Source: an uncultured bacterium (GTDB lineage Bacteria > Bacillota_I > Bacilli_A > RFN20 > CAG-826). Taken from it: a stretch of 64,000 nt of DNA. The stretch lies in NCBI GenBank assembly GCA_949300345.1, contig CASGDR010000007.1, forward strand, positions 62,001 to 126,000, written 5' to 3'. Every line of letters begins with the position of its first letter. Within the stretch, counting starts at the first letter, position 1. Made by a program: the position numbers and the translations under genes. Under the pieces are notes generated by a model. That model searched no databases. It saw only the letters and a program-made list of their open reading frames with translations, and was not told the DNA's origin. This document shows, one piece after another, positions 41,512 to 44,632 of this stretch.

Positions 41512-42393
41512 TTAGGACAAAGACTTGATGATGTGCTTGGCGTAGGCCCCCGCCACATTGATGCCGGTCACTTTTTCCACGCCGGTGATGAAGGCATTGG
41601 AATTGACCTCGCATAGGACGGGTTCCCCATCCTTGCCTTCAAGCAGATCGATCCCGCAGTAATCCAAACCCAAAATATCGGCAGCCTTTTGGGCCGTTTC
41701 GATATAGCTGATGGGCAGTTCGACCTTCTCGCCGATTCCGCCTTGGGCTAGGTTGGAGCGGAAGTCCCCGGTGAGGTTGCGCCGTTTCATGCAGGCCACG
41801 ACCTTGCCGCCGATGAGGATCAGGCGGTTGTCCACCCCAAAGGAGGAGGCGATGAATTCCTGGTATAGGCGCGGGGAGAAAAGCAATCTCTTCTCATTTT
41901 CCGCAAGTTCGGCGCGGTTATTGATGAGACGGACCTCTTTGCCAAGGCTCCCGTAGTTGGATTTCATGATGAAGGGATAGGCTAGTTCTTTTTCGACCCT
42001 ATCGAGGAATTCGTCGGTCTTGGCCCCGGTGTAGTTGAGGGGTCCGGAAATGGTTTTGGGCATCTTGATCCCATATCCGGACAAAGCGATATGGGTCAGC
42101 ATCTTGTCATCGCATAGTTCGATGGACCTAGCGGTATCGAAGAGGCGGTATCCCGCCTTTTCCAGCATTATGGATAGATAGAGGTCCTTATCTAGGTAAA
42201 GGATGAAATCGTAATGGCCTAGCCTATTTTCCAGATTGCCCTCGGAGGTGAGGACTGCCATGACCTCGTCGGATTTGGCTAGGTCAAGGGTAAGGGAAAG
42301 CTTATTGAATTCCTCCGCCATCCTTTCATAGAAGTGGATGGGTCCACTTGAGACCCCATAGGCATTAAGTATCGCTAGGCCCTTGATTGACAT
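41512..42393 (-). CDS. RimK-type ATP-grasp ligase
   Basis: A 293-residue ATP-grasp protein. It has ATP-binding strands FIMKSNYGSLGKEVRL (~140-155) and LYQEFI, and metal-ligand residues in LDYCGIDLLEG and PVLCEVNSNAFITGVEKVTG. These match the RimK/LysX branch, which forms peptide-like bonds using ATP. N-terminal ~95 residues are the usual pre-ATP-grasp domain. The substrate is unknown and no lysW-like or peptide-substrate gene is adjacent. GATAAT on this strand (42406-42401) lies 7 nt before ATG 42393, so it is probably leaderless. Confidence 0.85.
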   Translation of the reverse strand: MSIKGLAILNAYGVSSGPIHFYERMAEEFNKLSLTLDLAKSDEVMAVLTSEGNLENRLGHYDFILYLDKDLYLSIMLEKAGYRLFDTARSIELCDDKMLTHIALSGYGIKMPKTISGPLNYTGAKTDEFLDRVEKELAYPFIMKSNYGSLGKEVRLINNRAELAENEKRLLFSPRLYQEFIASSFGVDNRLILIGGKVVACMKRRNLTGDFRSNLAQGGIGEKVELPISYIETAQKAADILGLDYCGIDLLEGKDGEPVLCEVNSNAFITGVEKVTGINVAGAYAKHIIKSLS

Positions 42394-42482: not shown

Positions 42483-42529
42483 TATGTTTCCTTTTACATA
42501 TAAAGACATAAAAAAGATATAATTATGTC
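42483..42529. promoter_or_regulatory. nadE promoter with TATGT/ACATA inverted repeats
   Basis: GACATAA (42505-42511) and TTATGTC (42523-42529) are a perfect 7-bp inverted repeat with an 11-bp spacer. They enclose most of the -10 hexamer TATAAT (42518-42523). A second pair, TATGT (42483-42487) and ACATA (42496-42500), lies just upstream. A protein bound here would block the promoter. The encoded protein carries a Phd-like domain, so autoregulation is a natural guess. Confidence 0.55.
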
Positions 42530-42532
42530 AAT

Positions 42533-44632
42533 ATGAAAGCAAAGCCCATTACCATCCTCCGCGATCCCAAAGCCCTGATCGAGGAAACAGTCGACGACGA
42601 ACCGATTCTGATAACCAAAAACGGAGAAGAATCCCTTGTGGTCCTCTCACCGGACAAATACGAATCCCTTCTAGGGAATAAAACCCAAGCGAGGGTTTAT
42701 GGCAATCATGAGGCCGAACCTAGCGACCCCCTTGGCTTTGTGAGGGTGCGTTCCGCCCCCGTTGAGGTAAGGGTGGCCAATATCAAGCACAATGTCGGGG
42801 AAATCAAAAAGAAGATGGAAGAGGCCCATAGGGACGGGGTCAAGGTCCTCGTCTTGCCCGAGCTATGCCTTTCTTCTTATACCTGCGGTGACTTATTCGG
42901 CGACAAAAGCCTTTTGGATAGATGCCTTGAGGGATTGAAGGATCTTAAGGAATACTCCAAAGAACTGAAGGGCTTGCTCACCTTCGTCGGGCTTCCCTAT
43001 ATGCAGGGGAACTGCCTTTATAACGTGGCCGCTCCCATCTATGAGGGCCATGTCTTGGCTTTGGTTCCCAAAAAACATATTCCCAACTACAAGGAATTCT
43101 ATGAAGCCAGGTACTTTTCTAGGGCCCCTGAGAAGAATATCCCGATCATCCTATTCAAAGAGAAGATTCCCTTTGGAAATAAGACCGTGCTTGTGAATTC
43201 TTCCTATCCCGATTTGAAGATAGGGGTGGAAATCTGCGAGGACCTCTGGGTATCCAATCCTCATAGCAACGATCTTTCGATGAACGGGGCTACCCTCATC
43301 TGCAACCTATCGGCTTCCAACGAAACCGTCGGCAAAAGGCAGTATCGGGAATCATTGGTCTCCATGACCTCGGCAAGGCAGATATCCGCCTACGCCTATT
43401 CCTCCGCCGGTAGGGGGGAATCATCCACCGACCTCATCTTCGGAGGGCAGTGCCTCATTTATGAAAACGGAAACTGCCTTTCGAATTCCGGGCTCTTCGA
43501 CATGAAGGAGGCCACCGCGGACATCGATATTGAAAAGCTATTGGCCGAAAGGCGGAAGATGACCACCTATAACGAGCAGGTAGAGCCCTTTGACCAGGTA
43601 TATTTCTCGATGCCTTTGGAAAAGCCCGCAAAAATCATGCGGAATTATGAAAAGAATCCCTTTATCCCAAAAGGGGATATTGATTTAGGTAGAGTCAGCC
43701 TCATCATCAGGATGCAGGCCGAAGGCTTGGCTAAGAGACTGAAGGCCACATATAGCAAAAAAGCAGTCGTTGGGCTATCCGGGGGATTGGATTCTACCCT
43801 TGCCCTTCTCGTGGGTGTGGAAGCCTTTACCTTATTGGGCCTATCCAAGGAAAACCTCATAGCCATAACCCTACCGGCTTTTGGTACCAGCACGAGGACT
43901 AGGACCAATGCCGAAAAGCTGGCCCAGGATCTTGGGGTGACCTTCAAAGAGATAAACATCAAAGCCTCGGTCCTCTCCCATCTTAGGGACATCGGGCATG
44001 ACCCCAATGATCTCAACGTCACCTACGAGAATGCCCAGGCTAGGGAAAGGACCCAGGTCCTACTGGATTATTCCAACGACATCGGGGGACTGATGATCGG
44101 CACCGGGGATCTCTCGGAACTCTGCCTAGGCTGGACTACCTATAATGGGGATCACATGTCTTCCTATGGGGTCAACGCCTCGATTCCCAAGACTCTGGTC
44201 CGCTATTTGGTCGTGGGCTATAGCCGGCTGCATCCCGAATGTGCCGAAGCCCTTCTTGATATCGTCGATACCCCGATCAGCCCTGAACTTTTGCCCACCG
44301 ATGAGAAGGGGAACATCGCCCAGAAGACCGAAGACAAGATCGGCCCTTATGAGCTGCATGATTTCTTTATCTACCATTACCTGAGGTTCCTGTACCGTCC
44401 CCGCAAGCTATACGAAATCGCCAAGGTGGCCTATGAGGGCTCGCTAGGCGATGACGAGATAAAGAAATGGCTAAGGGAATTCTTCCGCCGCTTCTTTTCC
44501 AACCAATTCAAGAGAAGCTGTTTGCCCGATGGGGCCAAGGTCGGCTCGGTTGCCATCTCCCCAAGGGGGGACTGGAGAATGCCTAGCGATGCCGATTCGG
44601 AAGAATATCTAAGGGAAATAGATTCCCTATAG
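42533..44632 (+). CDS. nadE: Glutamine-dependent NAD+ synthetase with N-terminal Phd/YefM antitoxin-like domain
   Basis: A 699-residue cytoplasmic enzyme making NAD+ from nicotinate adenine dinucleotide with glutamine as ammonia source. Residues ~1-50 (ITILRDPKALIEETVDDEPI, then LITKNGEESLVVLSPDKYESL) match the Phd/YefM antitoxin fold, a dimeric DNA-binding domain not normal for NadE. The nitrilase-type glutaminase domain starts near residue 66 (GFVRVRSAPVEVRVA) with LVLPELCLSSYTCGDLF and VEICEDLWV, whose Cys is catalytic. The synthetase domain has the PP-loop VGLSGGLDSTLAL (~406). No stop or frameshift separates the domains. TATAAT lies 9 nt before the ATG. Confidence 0.9.
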   Translation: MKAKPITILRDPKALIEETVDDEPILITKNGEESLVVLSPDKYESLLGNKTQARVYGNHEAEPSDPLGFVRVRSAPVEVRVANIKHNVGEIKKKMEEAHRDGVKVLVLPELCLSSYTCGDLFGDKSLLDRCLEGLKDLKEYSKELKGLLTFVGLPYMQGNCLYNVAAPIYEGHVLALVPKKHIPNYKEFYEARYFSRAPEKNIPIILFKEKIPFGNKTVLVNSSYPDLKIGVEICEDLWVSNPHSNDLSMNGATLICNLSASNETVGKRQYRESLVSMTSARQISAYAYSSAGRGESSTDLIFGGQCLIYENGNCLSNSGLFDMKEATADIDIEKLLAERRKMTTYNEQVEPFDQVYFSMPLEKPAKIMRNYEKNPFIPKGDIDLGRVSLIIRMQAEGLAKRLKATYSKKAVVGLSGGLDSTLALLVGVEAFTLLGLSKENLIAITLPAFGTSTRTRTNAEKLAQDLGVTFKEINIKASVLSHLRDIGHDPNDLNVTYENAQARERTQVLLDYSNDIGGLMIGTGDLSELCLGWTTYNGDHMSSYGVNASIPKTLVRYLVVGYSRLHPECAEALLDIVDTPISPELLPTDEKGNIAQKTEDKIGPYELHDFFIYHYLRFLYRPRKLYEIAKVAYEGSLGDDEIKKWLREFFRRFFSNQFKRSCLPDGAKVGSVAISPRGDWRMPSDADSEEYLREIDSL

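Follow-up and report, generated by a model that had tools for sequence, protein, structure and literature searches.

The window, the whole stretch of 64,000 nucleotides of DNA that was analysed, carries a nadE gene whose open reading frame (42533-44632, plus strand) encodes an NadE protein of 699 amino acids without any frameshift. The features recognized in this gene and in its promoter are collected in Table 1. The NAD(+) synthase model NF002730 matched residues 67-698 with 769.6 bits (cut-off 473), and the SGGLDS motif is invariant across the alignment of the NadE family. Both catalytic domains, the glutaminase and the synthetase, are present with their motifs, thus the protein fulfils what is demanded of a glutamine-dependent NAD synthetase. 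The N-terminal end of the same protein matched PF02604 PhdYeFM_antitox (residues 11-58, 33.9 bits, cut-off 29.8; 38.8 bits when residues 1-76 were searched alone) and TIGR01552 phd_fam (residues 11-46, 30.1 bits, cut-off 20.8); in several relatives the Pfam Phd/YefM match was obtained only under the cut-off. The sequence-only reading made before this analysis had claimed that the first ~50 residues form a Phd/YefM domain with no stop or frameshift before the glutaminase domain. Both parts of this claim held, and in the fused NadE proteins the domain covers about 47 residues, followed by a variable linker. The linker, which is unconserved, stands where an antitoxin has its toxin-binding C-terminal part, and the protein lacks the toxin-neutralising segment of an antitoxin.

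Table 1. Features of the nadE gene and its promoter in the window.
Feature	Position	Strand	Remarks
Inverted repeat GACATAA (42505-42511) / TTATGTC (42523-42529)	42505..42529	+	Outer half-sites of the operator
Operator ACATAAAAAAGATATAATTATGT	42506..42528	+	Two tandem 12-bp palindromic boxes; ends 4 nt before the start codon
Probable -10 box TATAAT	42518..42523	+	Lies in the second palindrome, with the start codon about 9 nt further on
Phd/YefM DNA-binding/dimerisation domain	42533..42673	+	Residues 1-47; Pfam, NCBIfam, alignment, AlphaFold and Foldseek
Variable linker	42674..42733	+	Residues 48-67; unconserved in alignments, dN/dS above that of its neighbours
Glutaminase (nitrilase-like) domain of NadE	42734..43537	+	PF00795 at residues 80-335; M. 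tuberculosis NadE aligns from residue 68
NAD synthetase domain of NadE, to the stop codon	43712..44632	+	PF02540 at residues 394-559; SGGLDS P-loop at residues 416-421

The fold of the N-terminal domain was predicted as well. In the AF2 model of the isolated domain the elements follow each other as E2-5, H6-10, H12-19, E25-29, E32-37 and H40-60, and its best matches in the PDB were Phd on operator DNA (4zm2, 4zm0) and YefM (2a6q), with a Foldseek probability of 1.00 and E values of 4e-3 to 6e-3. Since the top PDB matches were all Phd/YefM-type antitoxins, the fold can be regarded as that of Phd/YefM. Sequence searches, whether run with the domain alone or with its profile, did not return a significant match to any solved structure; it was the structure comparison that succeeded. 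The model of the isolated domain is more confident (pLDDT 87-90 over residues 1-40) than the full-length model, in which the confidence of the Phd domain is moderate (pLDDT about 60-68). Pro5, Ile6, Leu9, Arg10 and Gly31 (P5, I6, L9, R10, G31) are invariant in the alignment of fused and freestanding relatives, and K29 and N30 are nearly so (K29 at 90% or more). It has been demonstrated that R10 and R31 of E. coli YefM are essential for DNA binding (PMC4803016). The former corresponds by position to R10 of the fused protein and the latter aligns with K29, the YefM chain in the alignment being offset, by inference, by three tag residues. The basic DNA-contact residues equivalent to those of YefM are thus present. 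On the grounds of the curated cut-offs and the predicted fold, residues 1-47 of the 699-residue NadE are a genuine Phd/YefM DNA-binding domain, while its binding to DNA is itself inferred.

In the promoter of the window's nadE two palindromic boxes could be distinguished, a degenerate one at 42506-42517 (ACATAAAAAAGA) and a strong one at 42517-42528, with their centres 11 bp apart. Upstream of the fused nadE genes in general a conserved block, (A/G)CATAATTATG(C/T)-TATAATTATGT, lies near the start codon, and it consists of two palindromic boxes with 11 or 12 bp between the centres. The sequence-only reading had pointed to a perfect 7-bp GACATAA/TTATGTC repeat, which held: its arms are the outer half-sites of the tandem-palindrome operator and are kept in the relatives as ACAT..ATGT. 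Since the promoter is AT-rich, a single perfect 7-bp inverted repeat would by itself be weak evidence. The further pair TATGT/ACATA (42483-42487 and 42496-42500) noted in the same reading was not seen as conserved in the relatives, and the proposal that the operator consists of one inverted repeat plus this upstream pair was not supported, the anatomy being that of tandem palindromes. At the window's nadE no complete sigma-70 consensus pair turned up in the promoter scan, which indicates that the -35 element is weak or absent. The position of the probable -10 box suggests that the nadE mRNA is likely to be leaderless or nearly so, as far as can be inferred. A RimK-like ATP-grasp gene (window 41512-42393, minus strand) is transcribed divergently from nadE across a shared intergenic region of 139 bp. 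This neighbour is apparently kept in the same-genus loci L005, L006 and L011, and the two genes may possibly share the operator region.

Freestanding antitoxins that share this N-terminal sequence (consensus MPQIKPITDLRNTTEISELCH..EPIFITKNGYGDLVVMS) were found in Lachnospiraceae, Clostridia, Treponema, Halanaerobium, Anaeroplasmataceae and others. In most cases a small RelE/ParE-type ORF follows and the same tandem palindromes precede the antitoxin gene; the toxin ORF was checked at one locus (L173), where PF05016 matched above its cut-off. An operator matrix was trained on 30 toxin-antitoxin promoters of this antitoxin subfamily and on no nadE promoter at all. With the spacing fixed at 11 bp the matrix missed the genera with 12-bp spacing, and a gapped version regained them. 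Using the gapped matrix, a score above 10 bits was obtained in 48 of the 60 fused nadE promoters (median 20.1 bits; 50 of the 60 at p<0.01 against their own shuffles) as compared with one of the 21 unfused ones (median 0.8 bits; Mann-Whitney p=4e-9, phylogeny not corrected for). The upstream comparison in relatives thus shows that the tandem-palindrome operator tracks the fusion. The window's nadE promoter is the top site of its genome with 19.7 bits, a value reached by none of 200 shuffles, and it is the only site above 12 bits; in 10 Mb of random Markov sequence of equal dinucleotide composition the scores never came up to 17 bits. The runner-up (C1:311894) scored 11.8 bits and precedes the gene of a protein without evident link to NAD. 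Since the same operator occurs with the same domain subfamily in two unrelated gene settings, it can be inferred that the Phd domain of NadE reads this site. This is the strongest computational evidence available, in the absence of binding data.

Ten of the 60 fused promoters scored poorly, and in nine of these, all belonging to the window's own genus, the site has diverged. The diverged operators of this genus are found in a subclade (L006, L011, L058-L060, L063-L065), where the site of L006 has moved towards TGTCATTATAATGACA and those of L006, L011 and their relatives towards TGACAnTATAATGACA. The residues of the domain have changed in this subclade too, so it represents a natural example in which operator and domain have changed jointly.

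When exact and degenerate tandem patterns were searched in up to 32 genomes, close matches appeared almost only at nadE. A match in G045:C3 lies between convergent genes and another in G023:C13 is inside a gene; both look like chance occurrences. No second convincing site was found in these searches, and nadE alone is taken as the target of the fused protein.

The first 120 residues served as a profile to search 222 genomes of the order, and the Phd-linker-NadE architecture was detected in 58 of them, in about 12 genera and 3 families. Two more fused cases (L303 and L304) come from lower-completeness genomes of a fourth family (f2), which raises the distribution to at least four families. When 395 genomes were sampled class-wide, the fusion did not turn up beyond the order. 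An unfused nadE occurs in some lineages within the order. On the NadE tree the fusion label has to change three times, and the tree does not resolve whether the fusion arose by a single event or by several independent ones. In four genomes of the window's genus (G047, G210, G216, G218) the fusion is absent and the NadE-bearing frame is shorter (559-577 amino acids), with a match to the synthetase part only; a replacement of nadE within the genus is a possibility.

In closer pairs of fused genes the dN/dS of residues 1-47 was 0.02-0.11, similar to that of the NadE part, and one such pair had zero nonsynonymous changes in this region. The values for the linker ranged from 0.15 to 1.1. For the window's own protein only distant relatives could be used, and the values obtained (0.26-0.33) are near saturation. 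The Phd domain is thus under strong purifying selection wherever dN/dS can be measured, and the linker is under looser constraint.

The genome of the window is small (1.05 Mb, 52% GC). The fused domain was its sole Phd/YefM match, and a search for the ParE family, which did not extend to other toxin families, found no such toxin in it. The next ORF downstream of nadE matched GtrA_DPMS_TM, so there is no cognate toxin in that place of the operon. NiaR, searched by its 3H domain, was found in none of the 96 genomes of the family. Several unfused nadE genes lie directly 3' of a coding stretch resembling the end of nadD, which by inspection we take to be nadD, with no room for a promoter of their own; the fused nadE genes do have one. 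At one locus of a single species (L232, G110:C9) an N-terminal nucleotidyltransferase (NadD-like, PF01467) and NadE make up a single ORF, possibly a bifunctional NadD-NadE.

We propose that Phd-NadE is, very probably, a glutamine-dependent NAD synthetase that acts as the repressor of its own gene, although DNA binding and repression are inferred and have no experiment behind them. The two domains are joined in one polypeptide and an operator of the cognate type is present at its own promoter, the enzyme and the DNA-binding activities being inferred. In the simplest history a toxin-antitoxin operon would have lost its toxin and joined nadE, so that the promoter, the tandem-palindrome operator and the antitoxin DNA-binding domain of a Phd/YefM - RelE/ParE operon were grafted before nadE as one piece, and neither the toxin nor the tail by which the antitoxin bound it would have remained. 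The Phd domains of adjacent NadE subunits are inferred to pair. Since NadE of this class is an octamer (PMC6946656), four Phd dimers would be possible in each particle, and two of these could fill the tandem palindromes. Bound over the -10 box to the two palindromes, which are spaced 11-12 bp apart, the paired domains would block RNA polymerase once the amount of NadE is sufficient. As the site spans both the -10 box and the point where a near-leaderless transcript probably starts, its occupation should exclude RNA polymerase. In the lack of a second convincing site the circuit looks like a pure self-limitation of nadE. The claim of the sequence-only reading, a toxin-free enzyme acting as repressor of its own gene, is strongly supported by the comparative evidence, with binding and repression still inferred; its suggestion that the protein senses NAD(H) precursors is not supported.

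Among the alternatives, the one closest to our model is a ligand-gated trigger enzyme, in which nadE would be repressed only in one ligand state of the protein (e.g. NAD-bound or NaAD-free), so that NAD status is reported. Several facts are in favour of it: PutA, NadR and BirA all join enzyme and repressor activity, PutA being switched by its substrate (PMC8249747), the failure to find NiaR in the 96 genomes of the family leaves a regulatory niche open, and NadE octamers shift their conformation with substrates (PMC6946656). However, there is no sequence evidence for a coupling of the domains, the linker being variable and unconserved, and plain enzyme-level feedback accounts for all the data, hence we lean, without firmness, against gating. 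That the fused domain is still an antitoxin, neutralising a toxin elsewhere and thereby coupled to NAD synthesis, would be in line with its descent from antitoxins having RelE/ParE-type partners. Nevertheless, the C-terminal toxin-binding segment has been swapped for the variable linker and no toxin was found in the genome by the ParE-family search, other toxin families having been outside its scope, which makes this role very improbable.

The sequence-only reading had itself offered a neutral fusion of a stray antitoxin, functionless today, as an alternative. The unfused nadE of some lineages of the order implies that the domain is dispensable for catalysis, but the fusion has been kept in about 58 of the 222 genomes and in several families, the DNA-contact residues are invariant, the domain is under purifying selection and the operator has been retained together with it. 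The neutral reading is thus contradicted by the conservation and the dN/dS values and remains very unlikely. It is hardly more tenable that the palindromes serve another regulator, either a free antitoxin or an unrelated factor, with the fused domain present by coincidence. Freestanding antitoxins elsewhere do share the operator, and cross-regulation is conceivable in genomes having both, yet no Phd/YefM other than the fused domain was found in the window's genome, and the operator follows the fusion and is missing from nearly all unfused nadE genes, including the genus-26 relatives. Finally, the conserved stretch might be merely the -10 region of a strong promoter and no operator, since TATAAT does sit inside it. 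This explanation, too, has very little to recommend it: the conserved block extends over about 23 bp, with palindromic sequence to either side of the -10 box, it resembles toxin-antitoxin operators and not generic promoters, and genome-wide only nadE exceeds 12 bits.

A second, convergent fusion family was sought, and an HTH-NadE was found in one MAG only. At this locus (L026, G023:C52, 1492-3567, minus strand), which belongs to the same family, an N-terminal HTH_3 domain of the Cro/CI type, matching above the cut-off, replaces Phd, and an ACCCA-T-TGGGT inverted repeat lies immediately 5' of TATAAT. In Oscillospiraceae (L148, 2995-3402; also L157) a Phd-containing ORF of 135 amino acids with the same tandem-palindrome operator stands before a hisB-like gene, the order of L148 reading hisG-hisD-[Phd]-hisB-hisH-hisA; the genes around it are taken to be his genes, their names having been given by inspection. 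The C-terminal half of this ORF is not antitoxin-like, and it may be another domesticated Phd regulator. The HTH_3-NadE and the his-operon ORF together raise the possibility that repressor domains were grafted onto biosynthetic genes more than once. A bolder reading would see in the toxin-antitoxin promoter, operator and domain a portable autoregulation cassette grafted onto essential biosynthetic genes (NadE in the order, perhaps also the his operon of Oscillospiraceae), with NadE as a switch of NAD status whose octamer bridges the two palindromes cooperatively. The balance of the evidence falls a little short of favouring this view.

Toxin-antitoxin genes are usually viewed as selfish or defensive. 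Returning to the self-repressing NadE, the comparative evidence suggests that host lineages have kept the regulatory half of such a system and turned it to the feedback control of a pathway for an essential cofactor, in gut bacteria with small genomes in which no NiaR was found. This offers an instance of antitoxin domestication that can be cleanly tested, and a self-limiting enzyme circuit of compact design. In full-text searches of the open-licence PMC literature we found no paper on the fusion of an antitoxin domain to NAD synthetase or to another central enzyme.

The closest solved relative of the enzyme part is the octameric, glutamine-dependent NadE of M. tuberculosis (PMC6946656). Residues 68-697 align with it end to end (423 bits; Foldseek TM 0.76) and the glutaminase-synthetase organisation is the same, but the M. 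tuberculosis enzyme begins with the glutaminase domain and has no DNA-binding domain. In the regulatory part the nearest likeness is to YefM-YoeB and Axe-Txe. The operators of E. coli yefM-yoeB and enterococcal axe-txe have two palindromes with centres 12 bp apart which overlap the promoter (PMC7730913; PMC4803016). Phd-NadE shares with these systems the Phd/YefM N-terminal domain, the palindrome pair about 12 bp centre to centre over the promoter (PMC7730913) and the basic residues, R10 and R31 there being R10 and K29 here (PMC4803016). It differs from them in having neither a toxin nor a toxin-binding tail, its C-terminal part being a whole biosynthetic enzyme, and in the palindrome core of nadE, ATAATTAT, which is flanked by AC/GT and lacks the reported TGTACA core pair. 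E. coli NadR resembles it in that a DNA-binding domain is joined to an enzyme of NAD metabolism (NMN adenylyltransferase) and represses NAD genes; however, NadR has multiple targets (PMC8249747) and carries a different enzyme of the pathway. The DNA-binding domain of NadR is an HTH and not a Phd/YefM domain. E. coli PutA is likewise a trigger enzyme, a single-target one, with an N-terminal DNA-binding domain on a metabolic enzyme which represses its own gene (PMC8249747). The DNA-binding domain of PutA is a ribbon-helix-helix. PutA is a catabolic enzyme that controls putA/putP, with proline and membrane binding as its switch, whereas Phd-NadE is anabolic and uses the Phd/YefM fold; thus, with DNA binding inferred, Phd-NadE would extend the autoregulating "trigger" enzymes to a Phd/YefM domain carried on an NAD synthetase.
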